Of a stretch of DNA of 64,000 nt, positions 13,212 to 20,607 are shown piece after piece. The stretch is from Bradyrhizobium stylosanthis (GTDB lineage Bacteria; Pseudomonadota; Alphaproteobacteria; Rhizobiales; Xanthobacteraceae), in NCBI RefSeq assembly GCF_001641335.1, contig NZ_LVEM01000005.1, positions 496,001 to 560,000 of the forward strand. Direction: 5' to 3'. A program made the position numbers and the translations under genes. The notes below the pieces were generated by a model that made no database searches, had not been told where the DNA came from, and saw only the letters and a list, made by a program, of their open reading frames with translations. Position 1 is the stretch's first letter; every line of letters begins with the position of its first letter.

Positions 13212-13287
13212 GCCCAGGTAGCTCAGTTGGTAGAGCATGCGACTGAAAATCGCAGTGTCGGTGGTTCGATTCCGCCCCTGGGCACCA
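13212..13287 (+). tRNA. tRNA-Phe (anticodon GAA)
   Basis: 76 bases starting GCCCAGGTAGCTCAGTTGG and ending CCTGGGCACCA with encoded CCA. The anticodon stem GCGAC-T-GAAAA-TCGC presents GAA. The T arm GGTGG-TTCGATT-CCGCC is intact and the acceptor stem GCCCAGG/CCTGGGC is perfect. Confidence 0.98.
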
Positions 13288-13354: not shown

Positions 13355-14572
13355 TCAGCCCCGCCGTGCAAACACCAGCTGTCCGACGTCGATCTTTCCG
13401 GCTCTGAACCCTGCCTCGCAGTAGCACAGATAATATTCCCACATCCGGCGGAAGGGTTCGTCGAATCCCATCGAGGTCAGGTCGATCCAGGCCCGGCTGA
13501 AATTGTCGCGCCAGAGTGAGATCGTCCTGGCGTAGTCCTGCCCGAACACCCGCTCGCGAATGATAGGCATCTCGAAGCGCTCGCCGAGCGATCGCAGAAT
13601 GCTGGTCGAAGGCAGCATGCCGCCCGGAAAGATGTATCTCTGGATGAAGTCGACCCGTTGCCGATAGCTGCCGAAGAGCTCGTCGCGAACCGTGATGGCC
13701 TGGATGCCAGCCAGGCCGCCGGGCTTGAGCCGCTGCGTCAGCTGATTGAAATAGGCAGGCCAGAATTGCTCGCCGACGGCCTCGATCATCTCGATGGAGG
13801 CGATGCGGTCGAAGCGGCCGTCCTGGTCGCGATAATCCTGCAATCGGATCTCGACCTTTTCGGCGAGCCCGGCCTCGTGGATCCGGCGACGGGCAAAATC
13901 ATGCTGCTCCTTGCTGATCGTGAGTGCCAATACGTTGGCGCCGTAAGTCCTGGCGGCGAATTCAGCGAAGCCGCCCCAACCGCATCCGATCTCGAGCACG
14001 CTCTGACCGGGCTGCAATTCGATAGCCTTCGCCAGCTGCGCGTATTTGTGTTGTTGCGCGGCGGGGAGGTCGGCTGTCTCGGCCGGGAACAGAGCCGACG
14101 AGTAGGTCATGCTGGAATCGAGCCACGCTGCGAAGAACTCGTTTCCGAGATCGTAGTGCTTGTGGATGTTGTGCCTCGAGCCCTCCCTGGTATTGCGGCG
14201 GAGGCGATGAATCGCCCGCCGGCAGAGGCGAACCAGCATGTTCCCGGCGAAGGCGCTGTCGACCAGATCCTCGTTGAGACAGAATACGTAGAGAAGCTGG
14301 GCGAGATCGGGCGTGGTCCAGTCGCCCCGGATATAGGCCTCGGCCATGCCGATGTCGCCGCCGATAACGAGGCTGCGCGCGAATTTGTAGTTCTTCAGTT
14401 CGATCGAGGCCGACGGTCCCGGAAGCTGGCCACGCAACGTGACCATTCTCTGGTCGGGAAGGCGCACATGAAGGGTGCCGCACCGAAGTTGCGATGCAAG
14501 GCGCAAGGCAAGGCGGGCGAAGAACGGGACGCCATCAAATTGAACGGCTTGATGGGTGGCTGCCAGATCCAT
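13355..14572 (-). CDS. Cyclopropane-fatty-acid-synthase-like SAM methyltransferase
   Basis: A 405-residue member of the CfaS family. These act at the membrane surface on unsaturated acyl chains of phospholipids, using S-adenosylmethionine. HKHYDLGNEFFAAWLD (139-152) is the family signature, VLEIGCGWGGFAEFA (192-206) binds SAM, and IASIEMIEAVGEQFWPAYF and FIQRYIFPGGMLPS follow. It is the last gene of a three-gene operon with spacings of 3-4 bases after the FAD and DUF1365 genes. In Rhodobacter and Rhodopseudomonas, CfaS-like methylases of this kind (UfaM, FufM) make methylated or furan fatty acids under RpoE-ChrR control, so this is at least as likely as classical cyclopropanation. Confidence 0.9.
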   Translation of the reverse strand: MDLAATHQAVQFDGVPFFARLALRLASQLRCGTLHVRLPDQRMVTLRGQLPGPSASIELKNYKFARSLVIGGDIGMAEAYIRGDWTTPDLAQLLYVFCLNEDLVDSAFAGNMLVRLCRRAIHRLRRNTREGSRHNIHKHYDLGNEFFAAWLDSSMTYSSALFPAETADLPAAQQHKYAQLAKAIELQPGQSVLEIGCGWGGFAEFAARTYGANVLALTISKEQHDFARRRIHEAGLAEKVEIRLQDYRDQDGRFDRIASIEMIEAVGEQFWPAYFNQLTQRLKPGGLAGIQAITVRDELFGSYRQRVDFIQRYIFPGGMLPSTSILRSLGERFEMPIIRERVFGQDYARTISLWRDNFSRAWIDLTSMGFDEPFRRMWEYYLCYCEAGFRAGKIDVGQLVFARRG

Positions 14573-14575
14573 GGT

Positions 14576-15364
14576 TCAAATCTCGCGTTGCTTCAAACGA
14601 GGTACGTAGGGAACGCCCTTGAGCCAGAGCCGCATCGCTTCCCAGTGAATGGCCGCGATCACCTTGAACGTCAGGAGGGGAAGCCTGAAGAGCGCCGTCA
14701 AAAGGGTGTAGCTCGTCAGGGCACGACGTCGTCCGCAGAATGCTGCCGCAAACATCGCGCCCTGCGCGCCGATCTGCACGATCCTGACTTTCACATCCTG
14801 CCGAGGTGGAGAAACGCTGAAACGGTAATGCGTTTCCATCTCCATGAAGGGTGAAACGTAGAACGTCTTCGAATGGCGTTGGCGGACGACGCAGCTCGCG
14901 CCGTCCTCTTGCACCGGCAGGACGTAGGAATGCATCTCACCGAAGGTGTTGCGCACTTCGTAGATCAACAGCGCAAGATTGCCGGACGCGCCATAGCAGA
15001 AATAGATCGAGAGCGGGTTGAACACGTACCCCAGGACCTTGGGGTAACAGAGCAGGAGAACGCGGCCCCCGGCAAGGTCGACGCCGCGTTCGGCCGCGAG
15101 CTGCCGGGCGTATTGGCCGAGGCCCGCGCCCTTGCCGTCGCCGTGATCCCGCTCGTGAAAGCTGAAAGGCGCCGCTCGATTGATGCCGAACAGCCAGGAC
15201 TGGCGATCCGCTTCGTTCAGCCGGTCGAGGTCGATCAGCAGGCTCATCACGCGATAGGTGAACCTGTGCTGCACCGGCCGCCATCGCGCGTGCATCACCT
15301 TTCCCCAATAGAGCGCGGCGGGCGCTGTCGCATCATCGGCCCTGGCTGGTTTCGCTCCGGCCAT
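14576..15364 (-). CDS. DUF1365 domain-containing protein
   Basis: A 262-residue DUF1365 protein, recognised from YWGKVMHARWRPVQHRFTYR, the LLCYPKVLGYVFNPLSIYFC motif and KTFYVSPFMEMETHYRF. The family has no crystal-level assignment but co-occurs with an NAD/FAD amine-oxidase-like gene and a CfaS-like gene, as here, and is implicated in lipid modification. The start MAGAKPARAD at 15364 lies 4 bases after the upstream stop; a longer frame to 15595 overlaps that gene and is rejected. The next gene starts 3 bases downstream. It is a component of the putative fatty-acid-modifying operon at 13355-16682. Confidence 0.9.
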   Translation of the reverse strand: MAGAKPARADDATAPAALYWGKVMHARWRPVQHRFTYRVMSLLIDLDRLNEADRQSWLFGINRAAPFSFHERDHGDGKGAGLGQYARQLAAERGVDLAGGRVLLLCYPKVLGYVFNPLSIYFCYGASGNLALLIYEVRNTFGEMHSYVLPVQEDGASCVVRQRHSKTFYVSPFMEMETHYRFSVSPPRQDVKVRIVQIGAQGAMFAAAFCGRRRALTSYTLLTALFRLPLLTFKVIAAIHWEAMRLWLKGVPYVPRLKQREI

Positions 15365-15368
15365 CGCC

Positions 15369-16682
15369 TTACTCCGCGGCTTCGGCCAGCAGCGGATCCG
15401 GCTGACGCCATGGAACCTCGGTGCCAAGTGCCTCGGCAACGGAGATGCCGGCCTGCAAGCCATCCTCGTGAAAGCCGTAGCCGGTCCAGGCGCCGCAGAA
15501 CCAGGTTCGGTGACGCCCTTGAATCGCAACGAGTCGTCGCTGCGCCGCGAACGCAGCAAGGTCGTACTGCGGATGGGCGAAGGTGAATTTTCCAAACGTC
15601 AGATGGGCCGCGGGCTCGAACGGCGGGTTGAGGCTGACGAACAATGGTTTGCTGTCATCGATGCCCTGCAGCCGGTTCATCCAATAGGTCACCGCGACGT
15701 CGTTCTCGGCAGGCGTTTGCCGCGGCCAGCGCAGGAAGTTCCAGGATGCCCATGCCTGACGCCGCCGGGGCATGAGGCTGGGATCACGGTGAAGAAAGAT
15801 GGTGTTCGGGGCATATCGGATCGCCCCAAGGATGGAGCGCTCCTGGACGTCGGCGTCCGACATCGCCGCCAAGGCCTGGTCGCTGTGACAAGCCATCACC
15901 ACGGCGTCGTAAATCTCGACACCGCCGCGACTGTCGCGCACCGTCACGCCGTGTCCTCCCCGGTCGATCGACGTCACCGCGCAGCCTAGCCGAATGCTGT
16001 GCTTGAAAGAAGCGGTCAGCTTGTCGACATAGCGCCGGCTGCCACCCTCGACGGTCCGCCAGCGCGGGCGATCGAGGTGCAGGAGCCGGTGATTGTCGAA
16101 GAAGGCGACGAAGTTCTCCGCCGGAAACGACAGGATGTCGTCGGACGAGGACGACCAGATGGCCGCTCCCATCGGACCGAGGTAGTCGGAGAACAGGCGC
16201 GGCCCGAACGATTGCCGACGCAAATACTCGCCGAGCGTCAGAGCGTGCAGTTGGCCTGCACGCAAATCGGCCACGCTCTGCCTGTTGAAACGCACGACCT
16301 CCGCCAGCATCCGAATGTACGACGGCGATGCGAGGTTACGTGGTTGAGCGAACAGGCCGCAGGCCGTTTGCAGGGCGGTCTCGCCGCCACCGCGCCATTC
16401 GAACCGACCATGGTCGGCGGACAGGGCGAAGCTCATGGAAGTCTCGACGGTCTTCACGCCCAGATGCGTGAACAGCGACGTCAGTTGCGGGTAATTCGTC
16501 TCATTGAACACGATAAAGCCGACGTCGACGTCAATGGGCTCGCCGTCATAGTCGACGCGAACGGTATGGCTGTGCCCGCCCGGCTGCAACTCGCGCTCGT
16601 AAACGGTGACTGCGTAACGTTTCGACAGGAGCCACGCGGCGGCATTGCCGGCGATTCCCGTCCCGATCACGGCCAAACGCAT
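15369..16682 (-). CDS. FAD-dependent amine-oxidase-like oxidoreductase
   Basis: A 437-residue flavoprotein. The dinucleotide fold is at the extreme N-terminus (LAVIGTGIAGNAAAWLLSKR), followed by RELQPGGHSHTV, the second FAD contact. DVDVGFIVFNETNYP is a signature of the NAD/FAD-binding proteins that pair with DUF1365, and the C-terminal FCGAWTGYGFHEDGLQAG closes the FAD site. Family members are fatty-acid desaturase- or saturase-like rather than amine oxidases. It is first in the operon with DUF1365 and the CfaS-like methyltransferase. It is preceded by the TGATCC-N17-GTTTCC promoter at 16737-16765, so it is probably part of the RpoE-ChrR regulon. Confidence 0.9.
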   Translation of the reverse strand: MRLAVIGTGIAGNAAAWLLSKRYAVTVYERELQPGGHSHTVRVDYDGEPIDVDVGFIVFNETNYPQLTSLFTHLGVKTVETSMSFALSADHGRFEWRGGGETALQTACGLFAQPRNLASPSYIRMLAEVVRFNRQSVADLRAGQLHALTLGEYLRRQSFGPRLFSDYLGPMGAAIWSSSSDDILSFPAENFVAFFDNHRLLHLDRPRWRTVEGGSRRYVDKLTASFKHSIRLGCAVTSIDRGGHGVTVRDSRGGVEIYDAVVMACHSDQALAAMSDADVQERSILGAIRYAPNTIFLHRDPSLMPRRRQAWASWNFLRWPRQTPAENDVAVTYWMNRLQGIDDSKPLFVSLNPPFEPAAHLTFGKFTFAHPQYDLAAFAAQRRLVAIQGRHRTWFCGAWTGYGFHEDGLQAGISVAEALGTEVPWRQPDPLLAEAAE

Positions 16683-16736: not shown

Positions 16737-16765
16737 GGAAACGTCCGGCGAGAGGGCCCGGATCA
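16737..16765 (-). promoter_or_regulatory. ECF-sigma (RpoE-like) promoter of the FAD/DUF1365/CfaS operon
   Basis: On the minus strand TGATCC is followed by exactly 17 bases and GTTTCC, about 55 bases upstream of the operon start. The same bipartite element with identical spacing lies before the rpoE-like gene, the second ECF gene and the DUF2177 gene. Confidence 0.75.
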
Positions 16766-16850
16766 CCTGCTCGTTGGCGGGAACGCGCCGCCGAGGGCGA
16801 AACCGCCGCCCGCAGGTGACGTATCGACAGAGGTCAATTCTGGTGAGGGC

Positions 16851-17657
16851 ATGATTATTCTGTACGTTCAGGCGATAGGTTGCATCGCGTTGGCCCTCTG
16901 CCTTTTGATGGGATTGGCCTGGGTCGTTCAGCAGCGCACGGGCAATTCCGGCTGGGTGGACGCCATCTGGTCCTACGCCACCGGCCTCGTGGGCGCCGCA
17001 GCAGCCCTATGGCCGCTTGACGACGGTTTGCCGGCCCGCCGGGTGCTCGTCGCAGTGCTGGTGCTGGTGTGGTCGGTGAGGCTTGGGACGCACATCGCGC
17101 GCCGCTCCGCAGCGGGGATCGACGATCCCCGCTATGCGAATTATGCGCGCGAATGGGGAGCCGCGGCGCCGCGCCGGATGTTCTTCTTCCTCCAATCACA
17201 GGCGCTGGTCTCGGTGCCGCTGCCATTCGCCGTGTTCCTCGCAGCGCACGCGCCGGCGCCTGGACTGCGGCCGCAGGACTATATCGGGATCGGCATCATT
17301 CTGGTTGCCGTCGCCGGCGAGGCAATGGCAGACCGGCAGCTGCGGCGCTTCAAGCTCCGCCCGTCCAACGCCGGCCGCGTTTGCGATATCGGCCTTTGGC
17401 GCTGGTCGCGTCATCCGAACTATTTCTTCGAATGGCTGGGATGGCTGGCTTATCCGGTCATCGCGCTATCGCCCGGATACCCTTGGGGGTGGGCCAGCCT
17501 GGCGGCGCCCGCGATCATGTACTGGATCCTCGTCCACGTGACCGGAATCCCGCCGCTCGAGCAGCAGATGCTGCAATCGCGCGGCGAGAGGTATCGCCAG
17601 TATCAGGCACGCACCAGCGCGTTTTTCCCCTGGCCGCCGCGACAGGCTCAGCGATGA
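16851..17657 (+). CDS. DUF1295 membrane protein (steroid-reductase/ICMT-like fold)
   Basis: A 268-residue integral membrane protein of the DUF1295 family, related to 3-oxo-5-alpha-steroid 4-dehydrogenases and isoprenylcysteine methyltransferases. Hydrophobic helices lie at about 4-22, 40-60, 64-82, 110-130, 145-163 and 185-225. The conserved cofactor-binding segment is GLWRWSRHPNYFFEWLGW. GERYRQYQARTSAFFPWPP is the typical C-terminus. It could reduce or methylate a lipid chain. The start ATG at 16851 is preceded by GTGAGGG; a far longer frame back to 15999 is antisense to the FAD gene. It is divergent from the lipid operon. Confidence 0.88.
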   Translation: MIILYVQAIGCIALALCLLMGLAWVVQQRTGNSGWVDAIWSYATGLVGAAAALWPLDDGLPARRVLVAVLVLVWSVRLGTHIARRSAAGIDDPRYANYAREWGAAAPRRMFFFLQSQALVSVPLPFAVFLAAHAPAPGLRPQDYIGIGIILVAVAGEAMADRQLRRFKLRPSNAGRVCDIGLWRWSRHPNYFFEWLGWLAYPVIALSPGYPWGWASLAAPAIMYWILVHVTGIPPLEQQMLQSRGERYRQYQARTSAFFPWPPRQAQR

Positions 17658-17725: not shown

Positions 17726-17754
17726 TGATCCGCCATGCCTCGCGGATCGTTAAC
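17726..17754 (+). promoter_or_regulatory. ECF-sigma (RpoE-like) promoter of the DUF2177 gene
   Basis: TGATCC, 17 bases, then GTTAAC, on the plus strand 54 bases before the DUF2177 start. It matches the other three sites of the locus in both halves and spacing. Confidence 0.75.
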
Positions 17755-17807: not shown

Positions 17808-18209
17808 ATGAACCTTCTCCTCACCTATCTGGCGGTGGCCGTCACCTTCGTTGCTGTCGACATGGCCTGGCTCACGACCATGGTCGACAGGCTGTATCGG
17901 CCGGTGATGGGCGATATGTTGCGGGCTCAGCCCAACCTGCCGGCCGCGGCCGCGTTCTACGTGTTGTATCCTGTCGGCCTGATCTGGTTTGCCGTGCTGC
18001 CTGCGCAGCAAGACGGCGGCGCACTGCGCGCTTTCACGTCCGGCCTGCTGCTCGGATGCTTCACATATGCGACCTACGATCTCACCAATCAGGCAACGCT
18101 GCGAAACTGGTCGACCGGACTGACCCTTGCGGACGTTTGCTGGGGATCGTTTCTCGCCGGCGTCAGTGCCTGGACCGGATTTCTTGTCGCTCAAAAGCTG
18201 TCGCACTGA
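17808..18209 (+). CDS. DUF2177 family membrane protein
   Basis: A 133-residue inner-membrane protein with four predicted helices (about 1-22, 46-64, 75-93, 105-128). Family-typical motifs are AVDMAWLTTMVDRLYRPVMGDML after helix 1 and YATYDLTNQATLRNW between helices 3 and 4. DUF2177 proteins are often found beside CfaS/DUF1365 genes and in ECF-ChrR regulons; their activity is unknown. An RpoE-type promoter lies at 17726-17754. The gene converges with the 18269-18571 gene. Confidence 0.9.
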   Translation: MNLLLTYLAVAVTFVAVDMAWLTTMVDRLYRPVMGDMLRAQPNLPAAAAFYVLYPVGLIWFAVLPAQQDGGALRAFTSGLLLGCFTYATYDLTNQATLRNWSTGLTLADVCWGSFLAGVSAWTGFLVAQKLSH

Positions 18210-18268: not shown

Positions 18269-18571
18269 TCAGGTTCGCTTCCGGCCTTCGAGCTGCTCGA
18301 ATGCTTCCCTGGTTTCCACGATCTTGTCCGACAGGGACTTGAACGCACTCCGAGCCTGCAGCTTTGACTCCTCGTCGAACAAGAGGCAGGCGAGATCGAG
18401 CAATTGATCGCTCATGCGCTCCATAGTGGCGAGCAGCCGATCGAAGCCGGCTGCAGGATCGTCGGCCACGATACGTTCGACTTCCTGCACAATCGCCTCG
18501 AGCCTTGCGGTCGAGGAGACAAGCCGGTTCTCGCGTCCGCGCGCGGGAAATTCGATGATCTTTGCGTCCAT
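18269..18571 (-). CDS. Small helical hypothetical protein downstream of an ECF sigma gene
   Basis: A soluble, almost wholly alpha-helical protein of 100 residues starting MDAKIIEFPARGREN. Residues ~18-95 look like two or three long amphipathic helices (ARLEAIVQEVERIVADD, RLLATMERMSDQLLDLA, ALKSLSDKIVETREAFEQL-like). No known domain, Cys, His motif or membrane segment is seen. It starts 20 bases after the stop of the ECF sigma gene at 18592 and so is very likely co-expressed. A soluble partner or anti-sigma-like role is a guess from position only. Confidence 0.65.
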   Translation of the reverse strand: MDAKIIEFPARGRENRLVSSTARLEAIVQEVERIVADDPAAGFDRLLATMERMSDQLLDLACLLFDEESKLQARSAFKSLSDKIVETREAFEQLEGRKRT

Positions 18572-18591
18572 ACAGGGCGTTCTCGCCGGCT

Positions 18592-19176
18592 TCAGGCCGC
18601 GGCCGATGCCGCAAGGCAATCCTTGCGCACCGCCAAAATGGTTCGGTGCAGCCAGGTCTTGATGGTGCCGACCGGCACGCCGAAGCGCCGAGACAGGCTC
18701 GCGCGGCTCTCGCCCTCGAGATAAGCCAGAGCGACCAGCCTGCGGCGATCTTCCGGCAAGCGGGCCAGTACTCCGCGGGCAATCGGTTCGGCGCTGACGT
18801 AATCGAAATCCTCGGTTGGTGACGGCCCGGCCGCTGCCGGGACCGCCAGCGCCTCGTCCAGTTCGACATTCGGTTGTCGTCTGGTCCGCAGATGATCAAT
18901 TGCGGTGTGCCGAACGATTGCGGACATCCAGGCCATGGCGGGTGCGCGTCCGGAATCGAACCGGGCAGCATTGCGCCAGACCTTCAAGAAAGTTTCCTGG
19001 AGGATATCGTCGACGTCGTGCGGTGCGGCCCCGACCGCCAGTGCAATTCTCCGCAGCCTGCCGCGTGTCAGCGTATGAAGCTCCGCGAAGGCACGTGTCT
19101 CGCCTTCGGAGACGCGTGCCAGCAGTTCGGACAATTTCTCGATCTGCGCCTGACTTGCCAGGCTTGAACAGGCCAT
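18592..19176 (-). CDS. ECF-type RNA polymerase sigma factor (second of the locus)
   Basis: A 194-residue group 4 sigma factor. Region 2 spans ~20-85: the core-binding DVDDILQETFLKVWRNAARFD is followed by PAMAWMSAIVRHTAIDHLRTRR. Region 4 spans ~135-185: LPEDRRRLVALAYLEGESRASLSRRFGVPVGTIKTWLHR. It has its own TGATCC-N17-GTTTCG promoter at 19201-19229, identical in type to the promoter of the rpoE-like gene. This suggests that the first sigma factor activates it, or that both recognise the same element. No dedicated anti-sigma gene follows; the next gene encodes the small helical protein. Confidence 0.93.
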   Translation of the reverse strand: MACSSLASQAQIEKLSELLARVSEGETRAFAELHTLTRGRLRRIALAVGAAPHDVDDILQETFLKVWRNAARFDSGRAPAMAWMSAIVRHTAIDHLRTRRQPNVELDEALAVPAAAGPSPTEDFDYVSAEPIARGVLARLPEDRRRLVALAYLEGESRASLSRRFGVPVGTIKTWLHRTILAVRKDCLAASAAA

Positions 19177-19200: not shown

Positions 19201-19229
19201 CGAAACGCTCCGGGCAACGGCCCGGATCA
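19201..19229 (-). promoter_or_regulatory. ECF-sigma (RpoE-like) promoter of the second ECF gene
   Basis: Minus-strand TGATCC-N17-GTTTCG lies 24 bases before the start codon, in the 79-base gap after chrR. Confidence 0.75.
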
Positions 19230-19255: not shown

Positions 19256-19897
19256 TCACAGCCGCACGAACGGCCCGATCAGTCGGCCGAGGAAACCGTT
19301 GATGCGCAGGTCGCCGGTCATGGCGACCAGGCAGACGCAGGGGCCTTCGTCGCCGACGATGGGACGGTGATCGATCTCGTCATCGCCGTAGTCGAAATCT
19401 CCGGGACCGTAGCGCCCGCCCTCGTGGCTGAAGCTGCCCTCGAGCACGAGCGTCAGTTCGGTGCCGGTGTGAGTGTGCTCGAGCATGCGCGAGCCTGGCG
19501 CTGACCGAAGCAGGAAGGCGCGCGCCTTGCCCGAACCGGACAGCTCGATCGGTCGCAGGCTGAGACCGGGCGCCACCCGCCGGCGCTTGCCGATGCGATA
19601 CTTTCGCAGCGCCGGCGGGAGAGTGTGGTCCGTGCCAGATGCGAGGGGAGGCGCGGCTGTCTCCTCCGAAGACTGGTGAATTCGCGACATCGCGCGGTCG
19701 AACGCATCCGGTGCGATCGGCACCGGCTCGACATCCTCCAACGCTGCGCCCGCGAGCTGTTCTATGGCCTGCACGAAGCGGGCGCAGCGCGGGCAGTCCG
19801 CCACATGGACTCCCACGACCAGCTGATGGGCCTCTTCCAGCTTGCCGGCCGCGAAATCGGCCAGAAGCTCTTCCGGCGGATGATGGCTGATCGTCAT
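19256..19897 (-). CDS. chrR: ChrR family zinc anti-sigma factor
   Basis: A 213-residue two-domain ChrR protein that holds its cognate ECF sigma factor inactive until singlet oxygen or organic peroxide triggers its turnover. The N-terminal zinc-binding anti-sigma domain has His6, His31, Cys35 and Cys38 (HVADCPRC). The C-terminal cupin has His141, His143 and Glu147 (LEHTHTGTELTL) and His177 (EIDHRP). As far as I recall these are the same residue numbers as the ligands described in Rhodobacter sphaeroides ChrR. The start overlaps the sigma gene stop by four bases (ATGA), as expected for an anti-sigma gene. Confidence 0.95.
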   Translation of the reverse strand: MTISHHPPEELLADFAAGKLEEAHQLVVGVHVADCPRCARFVQAIEQLAGAALEDVEPVPIAPDAFDRAMSRIHQSSEETAAPPLASGTDHTLPPALRKYRIGKRRRVAPGLSLRPIELSGSGKARAFLLRSAPGSRMLEHTHTGTELTLVLEGSFSHEGGRYGPGDFDYGDDEIDHRPIVGDEGPCVCLVAMTGDLRINGFLGRLIGPFVRL

Positions 19898-20490
19898 GCT
19901 TCTTCGTCCAAAATGTCTCGCAGCCGGTTCATCGCCAGCCTGATCCGTGACTTGACCGTCCCAAGCGGAATTCCAAGCGTGGTCGCGATTTCCGGGTGCG
20001 GCCTTTCCTCGATGAACGACAGCCTCACCACCATGGATTGCTCTGCCGAGAGCTGCTCGATGGCCGCCGCGATCCGTGCCGCATCCTGCACGCGCGACAT
20101 CAGGATATCGGCCGTTTCGGCTTGATCCGGCTCATCCGGCAGCTCGGAACAGGTTTGCAGCCGGTCTGCCCGCGCCCTGCGGCGGAACAAATCGATCCGC
20201 AGATTGCGTGCGATGGTAAATATCCAGGCGGGCGCGCCCGCTGTCGCAGGATCAAACTGGTGCGCCTTACGCCATATGGCAATCATGGTGTTTTGGGCGA
20301 TCTCTTCCGCCTCATCGGCGCTGCACCCGGCCTTGAGCATCAGCCCTTTGATGCGGGGCGCAAAATGCTCGAATAGCCGCTTGAAAGCCTCCCGGTCGCT
20401 ATCGGAGGCGACGCGTCCGATCAAATCAGCCCAGTTCACCGTTGCTTTCGGCCCTTTGCTCGCACCAATCGACAGCCGCGCCGCAACCAT
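19894..20490 (-). CDS. rpoE: RpoE-like ECF sigma factor, ChrR-controlled
   Basis: A 198-residue ECF sigma factor. NWADLIGRVASDSDREAF and LFEHFAPRIKGLMLKAGC match the R. sphaeroides RpoE N-terminus. Region 2 is EEIAQNTMIAIWRKAHQFDP with APAWIFTIARNLRIDLFRRR; region 4 ends ATTLGIPLGTVKSRIRLAM. It is translationally coupled to chrR. It controls the response to singlet oxygen in relatives. The start at 20490 fits family length; ATG 20550 has a better GAGG site and would add 20 residues. The promoter at 20579-20607 excludes the longest frame (20583), whose start would lie at or upstream of the transcription start. Confidence 0.93.
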   Translation of the reverse strand: MVAARLSIGASKGPKATVNWADLIGRVASDSDREAFKRLFEHFAPRIKGLMLKAGCSADEAEEIAQNTMIAIWRKAHQFDPATAGAPAWIFTIARNLRIDLFRRRARADRLQTCSELPDEPDQAETADILMSRVQDAARIAAAIEQLSAEQSMVVRLSFIEERPHPEIATTLGIPLGTVKSRIRLAMNRLRDILDEEA

Positions 20491-20578
20491 CCGGGTTAAC
20501 CTGGCCTCAGCCCGGATTGGCACCTCAAAAGCCCGGATAGCAGCGATCATAGCGCCTCGACAAGCGACCTCTTGGGAT

Positions 20579-20607
20579 GACAACGACCGGGGCCGGCCGC
20601 CGGATCA
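20579..20607 (-). promoter_or_regulatory. ECF-sigma (RpoE-like) autoregulatory promoter
   Basis: Minus-strand TGATCC-N17-GTTGTC upstream of the rpoE-chrR pair. It matches the elements at 16737, 17726 and 19201, consistent with positive autoregulation. Confidence 0.75.

Follow-up and report, generated by a model that had tools for sequence, protein, structure and literature searches.

A probable furan fatty acid operon next to rpoE-chrR in Bradyrhizobium stylosanthis, and two predicted promoter classes before its genes and their relatives

Introduction

The closest described relative of the system analyzed here is the gene set RPA2571 (ufaD), RPA2570 (ufaO, encoding a DUF1365 protein) and RPA2569 (ufaM) of Rhodopseudomonas palustris CGA009. 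According to Lemke et al. (2020, PMC7380195), these genes have consecutive locus tags, their deletion abolished the methylated furan fatty acid 9M5-FuFA, and the set was enough for 9M5-FuFA formation in Rhodobacter sphaeroides. We compared with it a minus-strand operon at positions 13355-16682 of a 64,000-nucleotide stretch of Bradyrhizobium stylosanthis DNA (G000:C18:496001-560000, in the 8.8 Mb genome G000; the whole stretch is referred to as the window). This operon is very probably ufaD-ufaO-ufaM and would make methylated furan fatty acids of the 9M5-FuFA type on phospholipid acyl chains.

Two other described systems are relevant. In R. sphaeroides, RSP1091-1087 and RSP2144 provide the UfaD, UfaO and UfaM activities under an ECF11 (extracytoplasmic function) sigma factor with the zinc anti-sigma factor ChrR; there ufaM (RSP2144) lies at another locus, and RSP1087-1089 are dispensable (PMC7380195, PMC6852236). 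The second-tier sigma factor of that organism is RpoHII, driven by RpoE in the singlet-oxygen response (PMC6852236), whereas in the window lineage it would be an ECF sigma factor encoded next to chrR. The genus of the window also has ECF sigma factors responsive to reactive oxygen species or singlet oxygen, namely EcfQ and EcfF-OsrA of B. japonicum. In the description given in PMC3420878, EcfQ has no linked anti-sigma gene and its control is called unknown, EcfF uses GTAAC-N14-15-CG, and neither is placed beside rpoE-chrR.

The window operon shares three families and their order with the R. palustris set, but differs from it in adjoining rpoE-chrR, a second ECF sigma gene and genes for DUF1295 and DUF2177 proteins, and in having an RpoE-type site. 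The enzymes appear to be those of the known pathway, with their steps assigned by orthology; what seems new is the wiring, that is, the second sigma factor linked to chrR and an exchange of promoter classes.

Results

The putative ufaD-ufaO-ufaM operon

The operon comprises the following predicted features, listed with coordinates and strand.

15369..16682 (-): ufaD, flavin adenine dinucleotide (FAD) amine-oxidase-like predicted fatty-acyl desaturase, 437 amino acids (PF01593, E 2.4e-21; GxGxxG at the N-terminus; gene order as RPA2571)
14576..15364 (-): ufaO, DUF1365 protein, predicted to insert oxygen, 262 amino acids (PF07103, E 1.5e-81; gene order as RPA2570)
13355..14572 (-): ufaM, predicted S-adenosylmethionine (SAM)-dependent acyl methylase of the UfaM class, 405 amino acids (CMAS, PF02353, E 2.8e-85; residues S139/E236/A240/Q266 in E. 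coli Cfa numbering, and tree)
16740..16765 (-): predicted RpoE-type promoter of ufaDOM, TGATCC-N16-CGTT (conserved in relatives)

The genes are separated by 4 nt (15365-15368, ufaD-ufaO) and 3 nt (14573-14575, ufaO-ufaM). For ufaO we took ATG 15364 as the start, picked by alignment with 73 relatives; the mechanical list of open reading frames (ORFs) begins at TTG 15595. The first-pass annotation had described these three families, spaced by three to four bases behind one RpoE-type promoter, and the ORF list, Pfam and the site at 16765-16740 (-) all agree with it. Just past the operon end lies a tRNA-Phe (GAA) gene (13212-13287, +), which might mark a boundary of the cassette or a site of its integration.

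We then analyzed the conservation of the three genes. Three lineages of loci are distinguished: A, the window lineage; B, the Rhodopseudomonas type, including many Bradyrhizobium; and C, other loci of the family, with UfaD at 45-55% identity. Named genomes were searched with a DUF1365 alignment and the best 80 of 578 confirmed stretches were taken; ufaD, ufaO and ufaM stand side by side in 76 of these 80. The four exceptions are L144, without ufaD at a contig edge, L138, without a complete ufaM ORF, L178, with a short ufaO ORF, and L183, without an adjacent methylase. UfaD, UfaO and UfaM of the window are 67%, 61% and 60% identical to the products of the same-order genes in Rhodopseudomonas pseudopalustris DSM 123 (L125), and UfaD identity is 82-93% across ten lineage-A loci. 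UfaO is present in 55 of 117 genus genomes, and identity was used here to set the lineages: it is 69% or above in 17 genomes (window lineage; the G192 gene has an internal stop), 59-65% in 28 (Rhodopseudomonas type) and 44-57% in 10. Four genomes (G108, G028, G067 and G089) are treated as probable Rhodopseudomonas from reaction-centre genes and from UfaO of G108 (L098), 86% identical to that of L125.

Because families and order match the R. palustris set, with 67/61/60% identity to R. pseudopalustris, we assign the amine oxidase as UfaD (the desaturase), the DUF1365 protein as UfaO (the oxygen step) and the methyltransferase as UfaM. The earlier idea of a furan fatty acid operon is thereby upheld, and the two non-methylase genes, which had been left without a step, now have one.

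The methylase and the cyclopropane synthases

Since R. sphaeroides ufaM (RSP2144) lies elsewhere and the in-operon RSP1089, which we take to be CfaS-like, is dispensable, the third gene needed its own test of membership in the UfaM class. We aligned 159 CMAS proteins, none of them the R. sphaeroides UfaM. Of these, 131 come from ufa loci; 127 of the 131 are distinct, and for 128 the gene was confirmed to follow ufaO directly. In E. coli Cfa numbering, all 131 ufa-locus proteins have Gln at His266, Ala at His240 and Glu at Gly236; the Cys139 position holds Ser in 126, including the window protein, and Ala in 5. Glu239, Ile268 and Tyr317 are retained. The nine Cfa-type proteins, among them E. 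coli Cfa and L001 of the window genome, all have Cys139, Gly236, His240 and His266. Ala240 was seen exclusively in ufa-locus proteins among the 159 aligned. The window methylase thus shares the family and the three retained residues with E. coli Cfa, but differs by His266 to Gln, His240 to Ala, Cys139 to Ser and Gly236 to Glu, and in a tree it groups with the Rhodopseudomonas proteins encoded in such operons and is separate from the Cfa type. These data point to a methylase of the UfaM class rather than a cyclopropane synthase; the residue swap is observed, and its mechanistic meaning is our interpretation. Cfa residues 139, 239, 266, 268 and 317 presumably bind bicarbonate, with His266 and Cys139 helping to hold this base, and on that assumption the swap of the latter two would fit a product that loses its proton elsewhere and becomes a methylated alkene.

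Two other readings of the operon were weighed. Its products might be cyclopropane fatty acids or simple methyl-branched ones, with a Cfa synthase as the third gene and unrelated helpers as the other two. The window methyltransferase is indeed of the CMAS family, and E. coli Cfa (6bqc) is the solved structure that matches it best in sequence, but the residues at Cfa positions 139, 240 and 266 and the tree set it apart as described above, and the window genome has a separate Cfa-type protein with Cys/His/His (L001, G000:C1:1935900); we regard this reading as very improbable. It is still harder to believe that the flavoprotein and the DUF1365 protein belong to some other redox pathway, such as the oxidation of carotenoids, hydroxysqualene or amines, and are neighbours of the methylase by coincidence. 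The amine oxidase LkcE is the top sequence match of UfaD among solved structures (E 1.8e-34), and UfaD has matches below cut-off to the HpnE and CrtD models. Against this reading stand the contiguity in 76 of the best 80 loci, the tested R. palustris orthologues (PMC7380195), and a single Arabidopsis protein, AT3G23510, that is reported to resemble both UfaD and UfaM (PMC10940516).

UfaO and the oxygen step

UfaO has no sequence match in the PDB up to E 10. Its AlphaFold2 model, built from 74 sequences (mean predicted local distance difference test, pLDDT, 82.7; predicted template modelling score, pTM, 0.81), is rich in strands and ends in a C-terminal helix (218-248). Foldseek gave no match to this model at E 0.001 or better, the best being E 2.2e-3. 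A second structural ranking puts barrels on top: Ycf58, which resembles fatty acid-binding proteins (Z 8.1, root-mean-square deviation 4.5, 133 aligned residues, 8% identity), the OlmO spirocyclase (Z 8.0), a designed transmembrane barrel (7.9) and the nitrobindins, which are heme proteins (6.8-7.9). The model could be a beta-barrel with a C-terminal helix, a shape that would be able to hold an acyl chain. In the alignment, invariant residues include H33, D73, Y107, N116, Y121, R138, N139, K166, F173, R194 and H240, and H25, H74, H145, W241 and E242 are nearly invariant.

For the chemistry we used the masses given in PMC7380195, 322.2 for the furan methyl ester and 312.2 after hydrogenation of the two double bonds of the diene. 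The diene methyl ester, put at 308.3 from the latter value, plus O2 (32.0) equals the furan (322.2) plus water (18.0), so the UfaO step needs no reductant in principle. This balance fits the statement of the authors that no reductant had to be supplied (PMC7380195), and the same net change has a synthetic precedent, in which singlet oxygen and a diene give an endoperoxide whose dehydration yields a furan (PMC10777415). Furan formation by UfaO may hence be free of reductant.

RpoE-type sites and the rpoE-chrR pair

The neighbourhood of the operon contains the following features.

16798..16823 (+): predicted second-class promoter ahead of the DUF1295 gene, CGAAACC-N15-CGTA (GAAAC-N16-CGTA; GAAAC and CGTA invariant in the window and 9/9 intact lineage-A loci)
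16851..17657 (+): DUF1295 membrane protein, possible accessory (PF06966, E 1.1e-66)
17726..17751 (+): predicted RpoE-type promoter of the DUF2177 gene, TGATCC-N16-CGTT (conserved in relatives)
17808..18209 (+): DUF2177 membrane protein, possible accessory (PF09945, E 1.3e-41; 83-94% in 9 lineage-A loci)
18269..18619 (-): small protein, 116 amino acids, start uncertain, overlapping the end of the ECF2 gene (53-78% in 9/9 intact lineage-A loci)
18592..19176 (-): ECF2, second ECF sigma factor, 194 amino acids (Sigma70_r2 and r4_2)
19204..19229 (-): predicted RpoE-type promoter of ECF2, TGATCC-N16-CGTT (also in 12/12 further loci)
19256..19897 (-): chrR, zinc anti-sigma factor, 213 amino acids (TIGR02451, 179 bits above cut-off; ligand positions)
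19894..20550 (-): rpoE, ECF11-type sigma factor (Sigma70_r2/r4_2; 4-base overlap with chrR)
20582..20607 (-): predicted RpoE-type promoter of rpoE-chrR, suggesting autoregulation, TGATCC-N16-CGTT (conserved in relatives)

For rpoE we chose ATG 20550 as the start, and the mechanical ORF list begins at TTG 20583. The 116-residue protein matched no Pfam family and was not detected in loci L258-L269.

The RpoE-type consensus TGATCC-N16-CGTA was taken from Pseudomonas syringae (PMC5507510); the sites found here mostly end in CGTT. Eight N16 sites within one mismatch of it are present in the window, and ten shuffles gave 0 to 6. Because the count alone overlaps the shuffles, the case rests on conservation. 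Four of the eight, all TGATCC-N16-CGTT, precede rpoE-chrR (20607), ECF2 (19229), ufaD (16765) and the DUF2177 gene (17726); the remaining four (12056, 14265, 20123 and 61925) were treated as chance. In nine relatives whose contigs span the whole locus (a tenth, L175, was incomplete and was dropped), the four sites recur in 36 of 36 cases with divergent spacers, the variants being three TGATCT, one ending in CGTC and one in CGTA. All 11 close relatives (10 distinct, L092 and L171 being one locus) have the site 71-148 nt ahead of ufaD, again with a diverging spacer. Within 300 nt upstream of ufaD, it was found in 12/12 lineage-A loci (11 distinct), 28/36 of lineage C and 0/45 of the Rhodopseudomonas type; in lineage C it also stands before rpoE (27/27) and the DUF2177 gene (20/31).

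ChrR of the window has His, Cys or Glu at the eight R. sphaeroides ligand positions 6, 31, 35, 38, 141, 143, 147 and 177, where we take His6 to be a zinc ligand of the R. sphaeroides protein. The rpoE-chrR pair with these ligands, together with the sites before rpoE and ufaD, would form an RpoE-ChrR (ECF11) regulon, its promoters being predictions. The first-pass annotation had placed furan fatty acid synthesis under RpoE-ChrR in both R. sphaeroides and R. palustris. The former half agrees with the ChrR control described in PMC7380195 and PMC6852236, but the R. palustris half is put in doubt by the 45 Rhodopseudomonas-type operons examined (CGA009 not among them), which have TGAAACY-N15/16-CGTA in place of the RpoE-type site.

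Perfect TGATCC-N16-CGTW occurs 30 times in the window genome, against 5 for the reversed pattern, and four of the sites are at this locus. Among the other 26, 17 lie inside ORFs, as judged by a crude ORF caller, and nine outside. The clearest extra candidate lies 30 nt before a LemA-family gene (L057, G000:C17:718458).

RpoE-type sites were also seen at related genes of other genomes. ChrR-like proteins at about 16619 (-) in L160, 13898 (-) in L179, 15124 (-) in L153 and 20462 (-) in L194 have one 37-54 nt upstream; they have no adjacent rpoE match at the cut-off used, and their N-terminal stretches are without the zinc anti-sigma Cys-x-x-Cys. In Bosea (L160), a photolyase-related protein and a short-chain dehydrogenase follow the ChrR-like gene. 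In L295, a TspO-like gene (1470, +; family recognised by eye) is divergent from rpoE-chrR and has its own site. Three probable Rhodopseudomonas loci (L296, L297 and L298) have a site before the stretch divergent from rpoE, where a very short gene (MSVFRKLNGME or similar, by eye) is possible.

A second sigma factor linked to chrR

We surveyed ECF2 in the 117 genus genomes, with no more than 28 first-look candidates scored in each; absence thus means none among those candidates. ECF2 at 77% or above was found in 16 genomes, all among the 17 of the window lineage; the one without a match, G134, is a draft assembly of about 720 contigs with 89% completeness. Twelve more genomes have ECF2 at 49-58%, in every case behind rpoE-chrR with a gap of 72-162 nt and with an RpoE-type site before both rpoE and ECF2. 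In total, the site precedes ECF2 in all 22 loci examined (the window, 9 and 12). Because RpoE-type sites precede both genes across the loci, we predict that RpoE drives the second sigma factor, that is, a sigma-to-sigma cascade. In one of these loci (L258), a photolyase-related gene (PF04244; 6284-7861, +) lies behind ECF2, where the window has the 116-residue protein.

The second promoter class

The second class, TGAAACY-N15/16-CGTA, is present in all 45 Rhodopseudomonas-type ufaD upstream regions (UfaD 60-70%; 42 distinct), at a distance of 54 to 68 nt from the start, where 0.01 per shuffled set would be expected by chance; the 33 distinct 15-nt spacers have a mean identity of 39%. It was found before ufaD in 0/12 loci of lineage A and 0/36 of lineage C. 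Among 40 other named sequences with UfaD below 60% (Mesorhizobium, Bosea, Roseibium and others), eight have the second class and five the RpoE type, one having both. In the three Rhodopseudomonas-type genomes examined for it (G108, G064 and G153), the second class also stands before the DUF1295-FufM-class genes and the DUF2177 gene, and in the window lineage GAAAC-N16-CGTA precedes DUF1295 in 10/10 loci. TGAAAC-N16-CGTA resembles what we take to be the sigma-W consensus of Bacillus subtilis.

As a genome-wide marker the loose form YGAAAC-N16-CGTA was rejected, being found less often than its control (10 vs 31 in G000, 16 vs 20 in G086). The strict form gave a five-genome total of 33 vs 17 in the control; many single sites are thus chance, and the second-class reading rests on the conserved ones. 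In four of the five genomes searched, including that of the window, a second-class promoter precedes a conserved 69-residue protein (L307:9561-9767 (-), G000:C16:411311; also L245, L278 and L286), the G153 copy of which had no Pfam match. Both promoter kinds overlap in Rhizobium johnstonii 3841 (L179), before a photolyase-looking gene, and in Roseibium (L194), before ufaD.

Much of the same gene set therefore seems to stand under two promoter classes that changed places. We lean slightly toward the view that the furan lipids of Hyphomicrobiales are run by two sigma factors whose promoters were exchanged before the same genes. RpoE would serve ufaDOM, the DUF2177 gene and the chrR-linked ECF sigma gene in the window lineage; another sigma factor, acting at TGAAACY-N15/16-CGTA, would serve ufaDOM, DUF1295-fufM and DUF2177 in the Rhodopseudomonas type, often without ChrR.

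DUF1295, DUF2177 and FufM-class genes

R. palustris has two further CMAS-type genes according to Lemke et al. (PMC7380195). Because of these, a third CMAS class in our data, which is the divergent one, was taken as probable FufM. A DUF1295 orthologue (63-67%) lies upstream of the FufM-class gene in 3/3 lineage-B genomes examined. The member in the window genome (G000:C19:370370-371062) shares 62-63% identity with two of the four members from probable Rhodopseudomonas. The class is also present in G024, where UfaO had no match, and its active-site residues vary, so a dimethyl furan product is not confidently predicted.

That the DUF1295 and DUF2177 membrane proteins may take part in the pathway had been suggested before. 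What ties them to it are the shared promoter classes and the place of DUF1295 upstream of FufM-class genes. In lineage C neither promoter class was found before DUF1295 (0/29), so that a general connection of this gene with either sigma factor is disfavoured.

Candidate sigma factors for the second class

One candidate reader of the second class (here GAAAC-N16/17-CGTA) is ECF2, in a chain from RpoE through ECF2 to DUF1295 in the window or to ufaDOM in the Rhodopseudomonas type. ECF2 has its RpoE-type site in all 22 loci and the second motif precedes the neighbouring DUF1295 in 10/10. However, the motif is before ufaD in 45/45 Rhodopseudomonas-type cases, yet 24 of 38 such genomes show no ChrR, and because of this we consider ECF2 unlikely as the second-class sigma factor. 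Of the 14 genomes with ChrR, nine are the 9/9 with an ECF2 match and five are among the 29 others, 15 of which are genus genomes picked for having no ECF2 match; G093, of lineage C and also without ChrR, was excluded. In addition, the three probable Rhodopseudomonas rpoE-chrR loci have no second sigma factor behind chrR.

A heat-shock promoter, read by RpoH1 or RpoH2, is less probable still. It would recall the RpoE-RpoHII cascade that serves the singlet-oxygen response of R. sphaeroides (PMC6852236), and the Sinorhizobium meliloti RpoH2 consensus, quoted in PMC4843759 as CTTGCC-N15-16-CCTATCT, shares a TATCT-like end with some sites. But directly ahead of TGAAAC the 45 sequences have 26 C, 15 T, 2 A and 2 G, so most of them lack the TTG of RpoH promoters; the spacing and the fixed CGTA differ from RpoH promoters, and rpoH2 is described as missing from many R. 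palustris strains (PMC4843759). When the Sigma70_r2 genes of G108 (20) and G153 (21) were screened for the second-class sigma factor, the strict motif was found in none of the upstream stretches of about 260 nt.

Discussion

Taken together, the locus suggests the following course. Singlet oxygen would inactivate ChrR and free RpoE, which, on promoter evidence, would transcribe rpoE-chrR, ufaDOM, the DUF2177 gene and the second ECF sigma gene. UfaM would transfer the methyl group of SAM to cis-vaccenoyl chains, ending as a methylated trans-alkene and not a cyclopropane. UfaD would turn this into a conjugated methyl diene, with electrons passing to O2, as work on R. sphaeroides and R. palustris leads us to expect, and UfaO would add O2 and close the furan ring. 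The furan lipid may then act as a quencher of oxidants and, as reported for R. sphaeroides, may influence the turnover of ChrR by feedback.

Several points weigh against this assignment. The identities refer to R. pseudopalustris DSM 123 and not to the tested proteins of R. palustris CGA009 or R. sphaeroides, and furan-lipid production in the genus of the window is here a prediction from genes; a literature search on Bradyrhizobium and furan fatty acids, judged by title and abstract, gave nothing on bacterial lipids. Gln266 is not unique to ufa loci, as two further CMAS proteins of the window genome (L003 and L004) have it, and so does L224 of G086, a genome of the same genus that carries the operon. 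The fold match of UfaO is weak and carries no functional information, its barrel ranking being suggestive only, and the assignment of the gene in the window genome as a fufM orthologue is likewise presumed. Among the papers listed in further searches, none dealt, by its title or the start of its abstract, with an RpoE-driven ECF sigma factor beside chrR, with furan lipids in Bradyrhizobium or with the second promoter class ahead of ufaD.

To a specialist the enzymes would come as no surprise, unlike the chrR-linked second sigma factor and the exchange of promoter classes. The results would extend a tested antioxidant pathway of membrane lipids to a nitrogen-fixing genus, and the residue pattern of the methylase offers a sequence test to tell UfaM-class methylases from cyclopropane synthases. 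Two questions also become testable: by which signal and sigma factor furan lipids are turned on outside Rhodobacter, and whether the UfaO step requires a reductant, which by mass balance it need not. If the two-sigma arrangement is true, furan lipids of the Rhodopseudomonas type would answer to a signal other than singlet oxygen.

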